Shown: positions 24,166-32,578 of the stretch, one piece after another | Position numbering within the stretch: the stretch's first letter is position 1 | Layout: each line of letters opens with the position of its first letter | NCBI GenBank assembly: GCA_029213305.1 | Contig: JARGPA010000001.1 | Span: 106,069-170,068 of the forward strand | From: Phycisphaerales bacterium | GTDB lineage: Bacteria > Planctomycetota > Phycisphaerae > Phycisphaerales > UBA1924 | DNA length: 64,000 nucleotides | Reading direction: 5' to 3' | Translations under genes and position numbers: made by a program | Notes under the pieces: generated by a model | Seen by the model: only the letters and a program-made list of their open reading frames with translations | The model's database searches: none | Told to the model about the DNA's origin: nothing

Positions 24166-25692
24166 TTACCCGAGAAGGGCAAGAACCTGCTGAGGTTGCT
24201 GGTTAGCCAGCGAGAGAACATTGGTCGAAGCCTGAACCAGGATCTGGTTACGAGTCAACGACGCGGTTTCGCTTGCAAAGTCAGCATCACGGATGACTGA
24301 TTCCGCAGCAGTTGTGTTCTCGAGTGCAACACCGAGTGAACGGATGGTTGCACCAACAACGTTCTTCTGGAACGCACCGAGACGGCCACGAGTTGATGAA
24401 ACCTGATCAATCGCTTCTGAAACGATCTGCTGAGCAGTATCAGTGTTGTTACCATCAACGATGTTGAATGACTTACCTGATGCAAGGTCATCAAGGTAAC
24501 CAAGGCTTGAGTTACCGAGCTTACGTGCTGAGATATCACCGATACCGATTGATACCTTACCTGCGATGTCTACTTCAGCTGCGAGCTGGAAGTCCGCACC
24601 GCCACCAGTAATAGTGAATGCACCGTTTGAAATCGCACCCAAAGTCTGGGAAACTGATGTTGAAGTAGTAAACTCAACATCAAGGAAGTCAGAGTTTACT
24701 GAAAGTGTCTTACCATTACCAGTTGCGAGCAACCCGTTGATGGTACCTGCAATGTCCTGACCATCGTCGCGAACGCCGTTGCCTGCTTCAGCTGAAGTGA
24801 ATGCAATCGCAGTGTTCAAGTCTGTTTCATCACTGAAGTCGCCTGCGTAAGTAGCAATGCTACCGCCGCCGCCTGCTGTTTGACCAGCATCGTCGATGAC
24901 TTTCACTGAAACGAACTCGCTGTCACCGAACTCAGTTGATGAGAGATTGACGACACTACCTGAACCAGCCGCAGTAACACCAGTAACATCAGTTACTGCG
25001 TTGATTGCTGCTGCAATCTGAGTAACTGTCTGTGTTGATGCAAACTGAAGTTCACGGCTGCCTTCTGCACCTGCAACTTCAATTGTGAATGCGCCTGATG
25101 GGTTTCCGCCAAGATCGAGGGCAGTACCACCGAATGAGATGAGGAAACCTGCTTGCTGTGCAGAAGCAGTAACGATCGCGTCAACTGTGTAGCTCGCGCC
25201 GTCGAACTTTGCACCACGAACATTCACATCAGAAACGCCAGCGTTCACTGTTGAAAGTTTGTAATCAAAGTTACCATTCAAGAGCTTGGTGCCCTGGAAT
25301 GATGTTGCACCTGCAACTCGGTCAATAGTTTGGAGGATCGAGTCGATTTGAAGCTGGTTCGCTTCTTTTTCTGACTCTGCCAAACCAGCACCGTTTGCTG
25401 ATGTAGTCAAGAGACCCTGAAGCTCTGTCAAGAGCGTTGAGATTTCCTGAAGGCCACCCTCAGCAATGTTGACCACTTGGTCCGCACGCTGTGAGTTACC
25501 GATTGCTGCGTTAATCGCTGATTTCTCAGCACGCAGGTTTTCACTCGCGATGAGACCCGCTGGGTCATCCTTACCACGACTGATACGAAGACCAGTTGAT
25601 AGACGCTCGAGTGAAGTTCCGAGTGATTTGTTGTTTTGACCGAGCACTCGTTGTGCGGTCAATGACGATACATTGGTGTTAATACGACTCAT
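24166..25692 (-). CDS. fliC: Flagellin 1
   Basis: A 508-residue flagellin, the filament subunit. The D0/D1 N-terminus is MSRINTNVSSLTAQRVLG with LERLSTGLRISRGKDDPAGL and a matching C-terminal D1/D0 (SVIRDADFASETASLTRNQI, SLANQQPQQVLALLG). The centre (about 170-400) is an Ala/Gly/Thr-rich variable domain. An ATG with GGAGG 10 bases before it lies inside a hexaloop hairpin (25698-25715) that fits a CsrA site. It has its own terminator, and the 280-base leader region beyond flagellin 2's terminator makes it a separate transcript. Confidence 0.96.
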   Translation of the reverse strand: MSRINTNVSSLTAQRVLGQNNKSLGTSLERLSTGLRISRGKDDPAGLIASENLRAEKSAINAAIGNSQRADQVVNIAEGGLQEISTLLTELQGLLTTSANGAGLAESEKEANQLQIDSILQTIDRVAGATSFQGTKLLNGNFDYKLSTVNAGVSDVNVRGAKFDGASYTVDAIVTASAQQAGFLISFGGTALDLGGNPSGAFTIEVAGAEGSRELQFASTQTVTQIAAAINAVTDVTGVTAAGSGSVVNLSSTEFGDSEFVSVKVIDDAGQTAGGGGSIATYAGDFSDETDLNTAIAFTSAEAGNGVRDDGQDIAGTINGLLATGNGKTLSVNSDFLDVEFTTSTSVSQTLGAISNGAFTITGGGADFQLAAEVDIAGKVSIGIGDISARKLGNSSLGYLDDLASGKSFNIVDGNNTDTAQQIVSEAIDQVSSTRGRLGAFQKNVVGATIRSLGVALENTTAAESVIRDADFASETASLTRNQILVQASTNVLSLANQQPQQVLALLG

Positions 25693-25971
25693 TTGCTGAC
25701 AACCTCCGTGTTTTCACCGACACGATTTCAATCGCTCGGCATTCCTGTGTTCCCGTTGTAGTCTCGGGTTCACCAGACCAAACTTGGCCTGTGTCTCCCA
25801 GTGCTCCGTCGCATGAGAGACGTGTTCAGATGGGTACACACCCATGGGAACGGATTGGGGATCGTCAAATCGAGTGGGCAGATGAAGTCATGATGTGATT
25901 AATTTGCCCTTTTTCACAGAGTTCAGTTATTAGGACCTACCTAATTGACAGGCGCAAAACCGCACGCGCAT
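25693..25971 (-). promoter_or_regulatory. Flagellin 1 promoter and leader region
   Basis: No gene is visible. On the minus strand it contains a hairpin ATGGGT-GTGT-ACCCAT (25830-25845) and a weak sigma-28-like pair, TACA, 16 bases, GCCGAGCG, whose start point would fall about 40 bases before the flagellin ATG. I found no good -24/-12 sigma-54 site here. The promoter assignment is weak, but the presence of an independent promoter follows from the terminator just upstream. Confidence 0.4.
25698..25715 (-). promoter_or_regulatory. Candidate CsrA site over flagellin 1 ribosome-binding site
   Basis: The RNA would fold as GAAAAC-ACGGAG-GTTGTC: a 6-position stem with five pairs and one A/G mismatch around the hexaloop ACGGAG (ANGGAN). 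The core ACACGGAGGT (25702-25711) also fits the linear CsrA consensus and contains the Shine-Dalgarno. CsrA bound here would block translation, as known for hag in Bacillus. Confidence 0.6.
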
Positions 25972-25994
25972 AAAAAAACCCGCCATTCGGCGGG
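25972..25994 (-). terminator. Intrinsic terminator of flagellin 2
   Basis: Stem CCCGCC / GGCGGG with loop ATTC (minus strand loop GAAT), then seven T on the minus strand, 43 bases past the flagellin 2 stop. Confidence 0.88.
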
Positions 25995-26036
25995 CTGTTT
26001 GTGGAATATTGATACTTTGGTATTTGAAACCAGTTG

Positions 26037-27581
26037 TTATCCAAGAAGCTGAAGAACTTGCTGTGATTGCTGATTCGCAAGCGACAGGACACTTGTTCCC
26101 GCGCTCTGTAAGATCTGTGCACGAGTGAGTTCACTAGATTCTTGAGCAAAGTCAGCATCACGGATAATCGAACGACTCGCAGTTAGGTTTTCAAACGCAG
26201 ACTGGAGTGATCGACGATTGGTATCTAGAACATTTCGCTCGAATGCACCCAATCGACCGCGTAACAATGAAACTTCATCAATCGACTTATCAACGATATC
26301 TTGGAGCGCGGAGAAGTCATTTCTACTTGCACCTGAATCGAGTGAGTTTGCTTGACCACTTGTCAGTGATGACAAGAACTGAAGATCACCTGCGACGAGT
26401 GTACCTCCCAAACTCTCAGAAGAGGTTGATTGAACACCAATGTTGGTTTGCTGAAGGGCAGTGATATCTGGGCCAAGCTGGAAGAGGGAACCGCCGCCTG
26501 TGATATCAAAGGTTGCAGCGGTTGCTGAAGGATCAATCGCAAAGGTTTCGTTGAGCAGCAATGTCATACCCAAAGAAGGTGAGTTGATCGAGACAGTCAG
26601 TCCGTCACCAGTTGCCAAGATTCCGTTGATGAGTGCAGAGACATCCCCGCCATCATCTCGATTCGCGGCAACGAGCGAAGTGCTTGCCCATGGGACTCCC
26701 CCGGCTGGGATAGCCGCGTTTCCATCAAGCTTGAAGAGGTTAAAGTTATCACCCGTTGATGGTTTGTCGAGTCTTTCGACACTGACGAACGCGTTTGATC
26801 CATACTCAGTCGATCTGAAGACCAAACCTGAGTTTGCATCGCCGTTGACGAGTGCTGCTTCAACACCGGTAAGCTCAGATAACGAGTTGATCGACGAAAC
26901 AACTGAAGCAAATGTTTGCCCAGAGATGAGCTGGAGTTCACGAACTCCTTCAGATCCGCGAATCTGAATTGTTGCGGATGAAAGGATTGTCCCGTCTCCG
27001 GTACCACTGTTATCTCCAGAGAGATACAGGTTTCCCTTTTGAGCAGACGAGATGACATCAACATCAACATTGATCGAGCTTGAACTGATAAAGCTCGCGC
27101 TGGTGATATTTGCTTGTGAGATCTCGGTTGTGCTGATACCTGAGGTAATGTAATCGAGCGATCCATCAAGGAGTTTGAGTCCACCAAAGGACGCAGTGTT
27201 CGAGATCCGGGTAATAGATTGAATCGCAGAATCGATCTGGAGCTGATTCGCTGCTCGCTCTTCATCTGACAAAGCACCAGTATTCGCGGCTTCGACCGCA
27301 AGTGCTTTGATTGAGTTGAGCAAGTCCGTAATCTCGGTTAATGACCCCTCCGTCGTCGCGATCACTGCACTTGCACGATCGCCGTTCTTGATGGCCTGAG
27401 AGATGCTCGAGATATCGGTGCCCAAACGTTCTGAAATGATCAGACCCGCAGGGTCATCCTTACCACGATTGATTCGAAGACCCGTTGAGAGTCGTTCGAG
27501 TCGAAGTTGAAGATCTAACCCAGAACGATTCAATCGTTGCTGAGCAATAAGACTCGGTACATTTGTGTTAATTCTTGTCAT
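26037..27581 (-). CDS. Flagellin 2
   Basis: A 514-residue flagellin paralogous to flagellin 1. The D0/D1 ends are conserved (MTRINTNVPSLIAQQRLN, LERLSTGLRINRGKDDPAGL; SIIRDADFAQESSELTRAQI, SLANQQSQQVLQLLG), while the central 170-400 region differs. It lies 54 bases after csrA on the same strand with no terminator between, so csrA and this flagellin are probably on one message. Its Shine-Dalgarno GGAGGA is inside a perfect hexaloop hairpin (27583-27600). Confidence 0.95.
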   Translation of the reverse strand: MTRINTNVPSLIAQQRLNRSGLDLQLRLERLSTGLRINRGKDDPAGLIISERLGTDISSISQAIKNGDRASAVIATTEGSLTEITDLLNSIKALAVEAANTGALSDEERAANQLQIDSAIQSITRISNTASFGGLKLLDGSLDYITSGISTTEISQANITSASFISSSSINVDVDVISSAQKGNLYLSGDNSGTGDGTILSSATIQIRGSEGVRELQLISGQTFASVVSSINSLSELTGVEAALVNGDANSGLVFRSTEYGSNAFVSVERLDKPSTGDNFNLFKLDGNAAIPAGGVPWASTSLVAANRDDGGDVSALINGILATGDGLTVSINSPSLGMTLLLNETFAIDPSATAATFDITGGGSLFQLGPDITALQQTNIGVQSTSSESLGGTLVAGDLQFLSSLTSGQANSLDSGASRNDFSALQDIVDKSIDEVSLLRGRLGAFERNVLDTNRRSLQSAFENLTASRSIIRDADFAQESSELTRAQILQSAGTSVLSLANQQSQQVLQLLG

Positions 27582-27582
27582 G

Positions 27583-27600
27583 GCAATCCTCCGTGATTGC
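27583..27600 (-). promoter_or_regulatory. Candidate CsrA site over flagellin 2 ribosome-binding site
   Basis: GCAATC-ACGGAG-GATTGC: a perfect 6-bp stem with hexaloop ACGGAG, one base before the ATG. ANGGAN in a hexaloop on a 5-6 bp stem is the known high-affinity CsrA target shape. The hairpin holds the Shine-Dalgarno, so CsrA binding would repress flagellin synthesis until FliW removes CsrA. Confidence 0.7.
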
Positions 27601-27610
27601 GTTGCTCATA

Positions 27611-27626
27611 CCCCATCAGTATGGGG
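27611..27626 (-). promoter_or_regulatory. Hairpin in the csrA-flagellin 2 gap
   Basis: CCCCAT-ACTG-ATGGGG on the minus strand, a perfect 6-bp stem lying between the csrA stop and the CsrA-type hairpin. No T run follows, so it is not a terminator. It could be an RNA processing or stability element. Confidence 0.4.
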
Positions 27627-27635
27627 ACGATGGGT

Positions 27636-28010
27636 TTAAGCGCTGTCCTTATCCTGGGACGATGAGTTGACTGATGAAGTAAATGGCCTAACTGTGGTCG
27701 CTCCAAGCGATACCGCAGGGCTAGTAAACGAATCTTTTTTCGCAACCTGAATCTCATCGTTGCGTTGAGCACGACGAGCAGGTCCCGGTTGAATGGTTTG
27801 TGCAAGCGAGTCGAGATCGGTTGTCCCTAGTCGAGCTGCTTGCGTATTTTCTCGTTTAATCGCTTCGTACACTTCTTTGCGGTGTACCGCGATCCGCGTC
27901 GGCGCGTTAATACCGAGACGGACTTTGTCGCCTCTGATATCAACGATTGAGATTTCGATCTCATCGCCGATCATTATTGTTTCGTCACGCTGCCTTGAGA
28001 GCACAAGCAT
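27636..28010 (-). CDS. csrA: Carbon storage regulator CsrA, with long C-terminal extension
   Basis: A 124-residue protein. Residues 1-55 are the CsrA/RsmA domain ([42 protein letters not shown]), an RNA-binding dimer with the conserved Arg in IAVHRKEVY. Ordinary CsrA has 60-75 residues. Here about 60 extra residues, rich in Ser, Thr, Gln and Arg, follow and have no known fold. It is downstream of fliW and upstream of flagellin 2. FliW binds CsrA and relieves repression when flagellin is exported. The Shine-Dalgarno AAGGAG is well placed. Confidence 0.95.
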
Positions 28011-28187: not shown

Positions 28188-28637
28188 TCATGCAGAAGCG
28201 GTTTGTGTTGATGTATTTGCAACCCGCATCAATGGATGACGAGTGGTCCAGCGTTTATCCGCAAGTACCATCTGTTCGCCCGATTTGGTGAGGGTATTAA
28301 TAATCAACGGCCCCTGGAAGTTACCAGTGAGCTGATCCCCGATCTTGTTCACGATCACAAACACTTGAGCATCTTCAAGCTTGGATATTTTCAACGATTC
28401 CATCTGCTCAGGGCGGATAGGAACAGAGAAATCCTGCTCGAAGAATGTTGGGTCTGTGACAACAAACGCAAGGTCTGGGTCATCAACACTCTGTAGCCAG
28501 AAGAAACATGCATCGTCACCAGGTTGAAGAAGACAGAACTGAATCCTGTCGCCAAAGCCTAGCAACCCGTCAGGGAAGGTAATCACGCGGTCCTCCGCGA
28601 TGTCGACTACCCCAAATCTAGTGGTCCGCACTTCCAT
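28188..28637 (-). CDS. fliW: Flagellar assembly factor FliW
   Basis: A 149-residue FliW, the antagonist of CsrA. It starts MEVRTTRFGVVDIAEDRVIT and has the core FPDGLLGFGDRIQFCLLQPG, FFWLQSVDDPDLAFVVTDP and NFQGPLIINTLTKSGEQMVL. FliW binds either flagellin or CsrA. When flagellin leaves the cell, freed FliW sequesters CsrA and allows flagellin translation. ATG 28637 with GGAG 8 bases upstream is better than the longer frame from 28688. It is followed by csrA on the same strand. Confidence 0.94.
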   Translation of the reverse strand: MEVRTTRFGVVDIAEDRVITFPDGLLGFGDRIQFCLLQPGDDACFFWLQSVDDPDLAFVVTDPTFFEQDFSVPIRPEQMESLKISKLEDAQVFVIVNKIGDQLTGNFQGPLIINTLTKSGEQMVLADKRWTTRHPLMRVANTSTQTASA

Positions 28638-28756
28638 GTGTGCGCTCCGATCATTTCGGCCGGTCCAATGTGGGATCGACGCCGACATCCATTGCCGGGC
28701 GACATCCTGTCTTGGTTACTCGCATGGCCGACAAGCGAGAACCTCGATCCAACTTC

Positions 28757-30862: not shown

Positions 30863-32578
30863 TTACACGAGTGTTAAGAGTGTGTCGAACATCTGTTGTG
30901 CTGTGGTAATGATTTGTGCTGCTGCTTGGTATTGACGCTGATATTCAAGGAGATTGATAGATTCTTCGTCGATGCTGACTCCAGAAACTGCTGAGCGTTG
31001 CCCGTCTAAGCTTTCGCGAACGAGTCGATCTGCGTTTGCTCTTGTTCTTGCTGAGCTTGTGTCAGATGCAATCTCTTGAGCTTGTTGCGCCCAGAACTTG
31101 GTGATGGATAATCCATCGAGTCCATCACTTGCTTGATCAACGAGACTGCCCATCGCGAGTGCTGTTCCGTTTGCGATGAACTGATCGCCTTCCATTTTGC
31201 CGAGCATCACAGTAACATCTTCACGAACCGCGATGTCGCTTGCTTGTGTTCCTGTAAAGAAACTGTTGACACCCATTGTTGCGAGCGCCCCTGAAGAATC
31301 TTCGGAGAATGAGAACGAGTATCCTGGATCAGAATCAATAACGAGTCGTCCTGCAGAATCAAAAGACGCATTGAGGCCTTCTATCCCGTCGATTGCTAAA
31401 CGAATATCCTCTGCTGAGGTATCTTCTGAAAAACCAGGTAACCCTGCATCGGTTAACCCATCAAGATCAATCTGAATCGGAGTAGATGAAGATCCTCCAG
31501 AGTCGTTTTGGACATTGACGATAAACGAACCGTTGACGGCACTAAACGGAAGATCCGCAAAAGTTAAGTTGTTCGGATCATTGAGCGCCAAAGTTTGATC
31601 ACTTGATCCGACTTGCAATGTACTTGATGTCGTTGTGAGCCAATCCTTGTTGATACCAGTTGAGTGGAGTTTGTTGACTTCGAAGATTAGTTGCGAGGCA
31701 AGTGTATCGAGTTTCTCAAGTGTTGCATCAATCGCGCCATCCCGTGATGCGAGTAAGCCGCCAATTGAACCACTTGAAATATCTAATGGGGTTGAATCTG
31801 CGGATAGTTCAACCCGAACTGTGAGAGCGCCGTTTACTGTCACTCGATCAACTTCGATTCCACGATTCCGAGCACCTTGCACGATCGGGGTTGATCCGGA
31901 GTAGATGTCGTAACTACCACTGTTTGATTCAACAACTGTGACATCGATGAGTTGGGCAAGCTCTGTCACTATTTCGTCGCGTCGATCGCGGAGCCCGCTA
32001 GCTTCTGCTTCGCCGATTTCGTTGCTTGAGATCACTCCGTTAATCGAAGCAATTTCGCTTAGGATTGCATCTGCACGCAACACTTGCGAGTCGATCTGGT
32101 CTTCGAGCTGCTCACGTTGTTGAATAAGATCTGATTGCATGTTTCTAATGAACGACGAAAGCGATCCTCCCTGATTGACGATGGTCGGACCAGAATCGAG
32201 TAGGGTAGTTGCTTCAGTCCATGAACTGAAGAATGAAGAAAGTTCTGTAGAGAGATCAAACTCAGTACCCTCGTTGAGGATTGTTTCGAGTTGTGAGAGT
32301 ACATTGAGTTGTTGAGCGCTTGAGTACTCTGCGGAGTTGCTGTTCCAGAGTCGGCGCTGGAGCGCTTCGTCGATCTGTCGACGAACTTCAGTGACGGCAA
32401 CACCCTGCCCGATCTGATGCGGATCAGACACTCGGCCTCGAATTGCTTCGAGCATCGCGATTTGTCGTGTATAACCTGGGGTCGCGGCATTTGCCAAGTT
32501 CTGCGATGTAACCTGCAATCCAAGTTGCGAAGTGATCAGCGCCGATTGGGCAATCTGCATTGAAGATGTAAGGCTCAT
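30863..32578 (-). CDS. flgK: Flagellar hook-associated protein 1 (FlgK)
   Basis: A 571-residue junction protein between hook and FlgL. It has the rod/hook N-terminal motif SALITSQLGLQVTSQNLANAATPGYTRQI, a central FlgK region with LRDRRDEIVTELAQLIDVTV, and C-terminal SGVSIDEESINLLEYQRQYQAAAQIITTAQQMFDTLL. The start at 32576-32578 has AAGGA 6 bases upstream. A longer frame by five codons is less likely. It follows flgN by about 50 bases. Confidence 0.95.
   Translation of the reverse strand: MSLTSSMQIAQSALITSQLGLQVTSQNLANAATPGYTRQIAMLEAIRGRVSDPHQIGQGVAVTEVRRQIDEALQRRLWNSNSAEYSSAQQLNVLSQLETILNEGTEFDLSTELSSFFSSWTEATTLLDSGPTIVNQGGSLSSFIRNMQSDLIQQREQLEDQIDSQVLRADAILSEIASINGVISSNEIGEAEASGLRDRRDEIVTELAQLIDVTVVESNSGSYDIYSGSTPIVQGARNRGIEVDRVTVNGALTVRVELSADSTPLDISSGSIGGLLASRDGAIDATLEKLDTLASQLIFEVNKLHSTGINKDWLTTTSSTLQVGSSDQTLALNDPNNLTFADLPFSAVNGSFIVNVQNDSGGSSSTPIQIDLDGLTDAGLPGFSEDTSAEDIRLAIDGIEGLNASFDSAGRLVIDSDPGYSFSFSEDSSGALATMGVNSFFTGTQASDIAVREDVTVMLGKMEGDQFIANGTALAMGSLVDQASDGLDGLSITKFWAQQAQEIASDTSSARTRANADRLVRESLDGQRSAVSGVSIDEESINLLEYQRQYQAAAQIITTAQQMFDTLLTLV

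Follow-up and report, generated by a model that had tools for sequence, protein, structure and literature searches.

A conserved hairpin before flagellin in Phycisphaerae is a predicted CsrA site of a probable FliW-CsrA-flagellin loop

A predicted hairpin with the hexaloop ACGGAG was identified directly before the start codon of a flagellin gene in the window, the 64,000-nt stretch of Phycisphaerales DNA analyzed here. Very probably, this hairpin serves the flagellin mRNA as its CsrA operator, as part of a FliW-CsrA-flagellin partner-switch. The original prediction had proposed such a loop, and it is supported comparatively by covariation of the stem, by the co-occurrence of flagellin-leader hairpins with FliW and by the retention of Asn55 in CsrA. 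The predicted hairpin has hardly changed throughout an entire planctomycete class, and the Phycisphaerae very probably control flagellin through the feedback loop described in Bacillus and Campylobacter.

A perfect hexaloop hairpin at the start of flagellin 2

The hairpin is composed of the following parts:

27583..27600, minus strand: hairpin GCAATC-ACGGAG-GATTGC, whose ANGGAN hexaloop holds the GGAG of the Shine-Dalgarno; predicted CsrA site
27600-27595, minus strand: 5' arm of the hairpin
27594-27589, minus strand: loop ACGGAG, in which A and GGAG do not vary among the 91 leaders compared below
27588-27583, minus strand: 3' arm of the hairpin, followed by C27582 and then by the flagellin 2 ATG at 27581-27579

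The sequence was found exactly as originally described, with one base (C27582) between the 3' arm and the ATG of the 514-aa flagellin 2. The 18-mer GCAATCACGGAGGATTGC is present as a single copy in the window (27583-27600, minus strand) and in 0/100 shuffles. The hairpin was both the predicted MFE and the centroid fold, with -7.1 kcal/mol over 31 nt (z -1.9), and the 81-nt flagellin 2 leader reached -19.2 kcal/mol (z -2.1). By itself, the folding energy of the hairpin is just modestly unusual. As a background, 363 gene starts within 448 kb of the 2.9-Mb genome were used. ANGGAN could be identified near the start in 84 of these, and in three, flagellin 2 included, it is enclosed by a stem of 5 bp or longer. 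The flagellin 2 hairpin was the best ANGGAN hexaloop hairpin of the sampled starts and the only one with a 6-bp stem that is entirely Watson-Crick. Judged by the rarity of this stem among gene starts and by the single copy of its core in the genome (see below), the hairpin is more than chance. It has the form of a high-affinity CsrA site, in which ANGGAN fills a 6-nt loop closed by five or more base pairs, and this site, predicted by sequence and structure, overlaps the Shine-Dalgarno of flagellin 2. In Rfam, nothing matched the hairpin at E values up to 5, and no known family exceeded the gathering score there.

It had also been claimed that the hairpin sequesters the ribosome-binding site. 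The GGAG of the Shine-Dalgarno is indeed located in the loop, but the hairpin presents the site and does not bury it, as only the last G of the Shine-Dalgarno is in the stem; occlusion would therefore come from CsrA. A translational brake that needs no protein, in which the stability of an RBS-masking or thermosensor hairpin alone determines how much flagellin is made, is very improbable. A fold of -7.1 kcal/mol over the start region would lower initiation unaided; however, a masking hairpin would neither fix the loop A in 91/91 leaders while the next base is free, nor keep the Shine-Dalgarno in the loop. Such a brake would also leave the FliW association of the hairpins and the CsrA Asn55 pattern (both below) unexplained.

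Gene neighborhood of the hairpin

The genes and other features around the hairpin are:

33153-32629, minus strand: flgN
32593-30863, minus strand: flgK
30832-28796, minus strand: flgL-like gene
28188..28688, minus strand: fliW, up to 166 aa (PF02623, E 5e-33; PDB matches 2aj7 and 5dmb_A)
27636..28010, minus strand: csrA, 124 aa; R44, I51 and N55 are present and the C-terminal extension is long (PF02599, E 3e-23; best PDB match 5dmb_D)
27611..27626, minus strand: second stem-loop, CCCCAT-ACTG-ATGGGG, downstream of the csrA stop and upstream of the hairpin; it has no GGA and no U-run
26037..27581, minus strand: flagellin 2, csrA-adjacent, 514 aa, predicted target (PF00669, E 1e-32; PF00700, E 2e-17)
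25977..25996, minus strand: terminator-like stem-loop (8 pairs, 6 of them G-C) with a T-run between flagellin 2 and flagellin 1; the scan found about equal numbers of such elements in shuffles
24166..25692, minus strand: flagellin 1, 508 aa, second predicted target (PF00669, E 2e-28)

The Pfam matches confirmed that csrA and fliW lie immediately upstream of flagellin 2, and CsrA, FliW and flagellin are all encoded at the locus. The gene order flgN-flgK-flgL-fliW-csrA-flagellin is also that of B. subtilis. The translation of fliW likely begins at an internal start, MEVRTTRF. CsrA and FliW both match chains of one PDB entry, 5dmb, in which the two proteins are found together.

The gap between csrA and flagellin 2 is 54 nt, and a scan of that strand recognized neither a promoter nor a terminator between the two genes. 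Because of this short gap and the lack of promoter- or terminator-like sites in it, flagellin 2 could ride on the csrA message, and it is plausible that CsrA regulates a gene located on the transcript that also encodes CsrA. Scans for sigma-28-like and sigma-54-like promoters 5' of the flagellins gave nothing convincing. The structure of the second stem-loop (27611..27626) is kept within the genus, with a different sequence in each species, and the mean z was -2.3 in the genus (21 leaders) versus -0.4 in 69 other leaders. A third, short flagellin (282 aa; G000:C6, L299:1290-2138) lies away from the cluster; it was rejected as a likely CsrA target, as no GGA is found close to its start.

Conservation and covariation of the hairpin in Phycisphaerae

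The relatives, to which 80 named loci were added (most titled Phycisphaerales, Phycisphaerae or Planctomycetota MAGs), were compared at this position. A CsrA-family match was found in 61/61 relatives searched. The conservation set comprised 107 Phycisphaerae loci in which csrA is followed by flagellin, corresponding to 91 distinct leaders, which were aligned by the loop.

All 91 leaders share the A of the loop, its GGAG and the C-G pair that closes it. The N of the loop was C in 71, A in 10, G in 5 and T in 5 leaders, and it changed at least 10 times on the flagellin tree. Stem pairs 2-5 were formed in 90, 90, 86, and 86 of the 91 leaders and pair 6 in 59, while pairs beyond the sixth were not kept and the flanks of the hairpin were freely variable. 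In the covariation analysis, 91.5% of the cells were paired, and two-sided changes were observed at 5/6 pairs (18 such cells). This was matched by 0/500 shuffles, and no slid register came near it. The test for independent pairs, applied to the outer pair, had four supported pairs and thus low power. A fully re-drawn stem, GACAAAC-AAGGAG-GTTTGTC, could be identified in one relative (L106), and another, GTTCC-AAGGAG-GGAAC, before the second flagellin of G037; other changed stem arms were CATC/GATG (L058) and AGTC/GACT (L088). The hairpin as a unit shifts between 7 and 11 nt from the start codon. In one genus (g38: G061, G085, G129) and in L104 the Shine-Dalgarno stem was lost, and a 7-bp GGA hairpin is found at -27 instead.

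The 91 leaders thus display both features of a CsrA hexaloop, a conserved A and GGA with a free N, and a stem kept by compensatory change. The comparison of relatives proposed with the original prediction gave a stem that is conserved and covaries, not one that drifts while the coding regions are conserved.

Conservation might also arise without any RNA function, from an extended Shine-Dalgarno combined with chance or with a DNA-level inverted repeat such as the site of a regulator. GGAGGAU is indeed near an extended Shine-Dalgarno, and the sequence of the core hardly varies. The 3' arm largely overlaps the extended Shine-Dalgarno, so that its conservation can in part be explained without a hairpin. 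However, the 5' arm is conserved although it lies outside any Shine-Dalgarno, compensatory changes occur at five pairs, stems of unrelated sequence hold the same loop, and the hairpin moves as a unit relative to the start. Moreover, ACGGAGG is rare as a Shine-Dalgarno, occurring at 3/363 starts of the same genome, two of which are the flagellins. This explanation is very improbable.

Specificity of the core sequence

The core CAATCANGGAGGATTG is present in exactly one copy in the 2.9-Mb genome. Of 151 genomes of the order, 74 contain the exact core, always as one copy and never as two, and its reversed control gave 0 matches in the 151 genomes. In all 27 genomes for which both positions are known, it is located just downstream of csrA. 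Genomes lacking the exact core include those with variant stems and most of family f2, which was only sampled. At four loci of this family (L285-L288; G042, G054, G058, G050) fliW and csrA are present, and a motif search of the stretches fetched identified no adjacent flagellin. A wider regulon sharing CAATCANGGAGGATTG was rejected, given one exact match per genome. The sole match with one mismatch in the same genome, CAATCAGGGAGGATCG (32162-32177, minus strand), lies within the flgK coding sequence and is probably due to chance, with ∼0.7 such matches expected as estimated from the two-mismatch count.

Co-occurrence with FliW and with CsrA Asn55

Across the phylum, FliW was identified in 29/108 genomes and CsrA in 39/108, among them every genome with FliW. 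For flagellin leaders outside the class, 42 genomes were examined (among them one that does belong to the class and has no FliW), and the leaders were scored for a GGA hexaloop with 5 bp or more of stem within 60 nt. Such leaders were present in 9/15 genomes with FliW versus 2/27 without (Fisher p 4e-4), and in 11/15 versus 2/27 when stems of at least 4 bp were accepted (p 2e-5); these p values serve as a guide only, since the genomes are not independent and more leaders were available per genome with FliW. Flagellin-leader hairpins thus go together with FliW across the phylum. The main exception is G108, in which neither FliW nor CsrA was detected, yet a 9-bp GGA hairpin and a leader with CAATCAAGGAGGAT were found before its flagellins (L168, L217); this may be an incomplete assembly or a relic. 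A 5-bp GGA hairpin is present in G109. In seven genomes with CsrA and without FliW, no GGA hexaloop on a stem of at least 5 bp was found in the flagellin leaders; six of these (G096, G112, G078, G124, G137, G157) belong to one family, f26, and have 9-17 csrA genes. In Planctomycetia, CsrA (COG1551) has been found enriched in the sigma-54 regulon (PMC12316311).

Binding of FliW requires Asn55 of CsrA in both C. jejuni and B. subtilis (PMC7829508). This residue was kept in 107/107 CsrAs of Phycisphaerae and in 24/26 other CsrAs encoded beside a planctomycete fliW, and it was found in only 3/20 CsrAs of FliW-less genomes. R44 was present in all compared CsrAs. Median CsrA lengths were 115 (Phycisphaerae), 91 (other FliW-linked), and 69 (FliW-less). 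The csrA product of the window (27636..28010) has Asn55 and a C-terminal extension, as expected for a partner-switch.

The genome also encodes a second, diverged CsrA-family protein of 79 aa without Asn55 (G000:C14; L298:1962-2201, minus strand), and a counterpart of it was found in nearly every relative.

This second protein could bind the hairpin, and its presence here and in nearly all relatives would fit a CsrA site that is uncoupled from FliW, with another antagonist or the diverged CsrA being what matters. The hairpin, however, tracks FliW and not CsrA alone, and the CsrA-rich genomes without FliW have no hairpin. In addition, fliW adjoins csrA, and Asn55 is kept. An uncoupled site is very improbable, and coupling to FliW is the preferred reading.

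The second flagellin and additional GGA sites

Two further candidate sites are located in the window:

27645..27655, minus strand: AGGATAAGGAC, two GGA motifs 56-62 nt upstream, at the 3' end of csrA (coding)
25701..25712, minus strand: AAC-ACGGAG-GTT before flagellin 1, 3-bp stem, with ACGGAG at 25709-25704

The ACGGAG before flagellin 1, which the original prediction had not mentioned, is likely a weaker predicted CsrA site. CACGGAGG was found in 57/79 second-flagellin leaders of relatives, compared with 3/363 gene starts of the same genome, two of which are the flagellins. In the flagellin 2 leader of the window, no second hexaloop with at least 5 bp was found. It is possible, and uncertain, that AGGATAAGGAC is a second CsrA contact. 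Among the 91 csrA-adjacent leaders, 11 have an upstream GGA hexaloop with at least 5 bp, where 0.6 would be expected from single-base shuffles.

A graded two-flagellin switch might be built from these sites, with a strong, near-invariant hairpin at flagellin 2 and the same loop on a short stem at flagellin 1, through which CsrA and FliW would set the order or ratio of the two filament subunits in addition to the amount of flagellin. The csrA and flagellin 2 genes would be co-transcribed, and the hairpins would represent an undescribed class-wide family of cis-regulatory RNAs. We put this forward tentatively, as a proposal that may well not hold. The graded control would be the new part; the loop itself is a known mechanism.

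Proposed mechanism

A CsrA dimer would bind the hexaloop ACGGAG, cover the Shine-Dalgarno and block translation of flagellin 2. When flagellin is exported, free FliW would bind the C-terminal part of CsrA (the Asn55 region), by which CsrA would be released from the mRNA. Flagellin that builds up would take up FliW, so that CsrA represses again. At flagellin 1, the same loop on its short stem would probably confer weaker repression. The sequences themselves show the anatomy of the hairpin, its conservation and covariation, and its co-occurrence with FliW and with CsrA Asn55, whereas binding, the direction in which control runs and the contact between flagellin and FliW are carried over from the systems already described.

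That the hairpin, FliW and CsrA Asn55 occur together supports flagellin control as an old role of CsrA, a view raised previously (PMC4894983). For Planctomycetota, an action of FliW on CsrA was proposed earlier from gene presence only (PMC4682653), and no description of a planctomycete flagellin as a target of CsrA was found in the literature searched, with subscription journals mostly outside it. The comparative evidence for a FliW-CsrA-flagellin loop in this phylum is strong, and good enough that experiment should confirm the loop. The conserved core is a ready test RNA and a handle for flagellin operators in uncultured genomes.

Comparison with known systems

The loop consensus, the blocking of the hag Shine-Dalgarno, the two flaA hairpins with their compensatory changes and the antagonism by FliW are established (PMC7652899, PMC4894983, PMC6529632). 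The Phycisphaerae locus resembles the Hag-FliW-CsrA system of Bacillus subtilis (hag leader) in that fliW, csrA and flagellin are adjacent, CsrA has Asn55 and a C-terminal extension, and the CsrA site, here a predicted one, overlaps the Shine-Dalgarno (PMC7652899). Unlike in B. subtilis, the site at the Shine-Dalgarno is a perfect hexaloop hairpin conserved class-wide, two flagellins follow csrA, and no recognizable sigma-28 promoter precedes the flagellin; B. subtilis has two CsrA sites, whereas no second site is evident in the leader of the window. The high-affinity RNAs of RsmE/CsrA likewise have a loop A-N-GGA-N with conserved A and GGA (PMC7652899); that consensus was defined on RsmE and its targets, whereas the site described here is a predicted one in an mRNA leader of Planctomycetota. 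Campylobacter jejuni flaA has two hairpins 21 nt apart, in contrast to the single one at the Shine-Dalgarno here, and a second upstream GGA hairpin as in flaA is present in some relatives and in other planctomycetes. Like the predicted operator of flagellin 2, flaA combines an ANGGA hexaloop over the ribosome-binding site with compensatory stem changes and FliW as the antagonist (PMC4894983).
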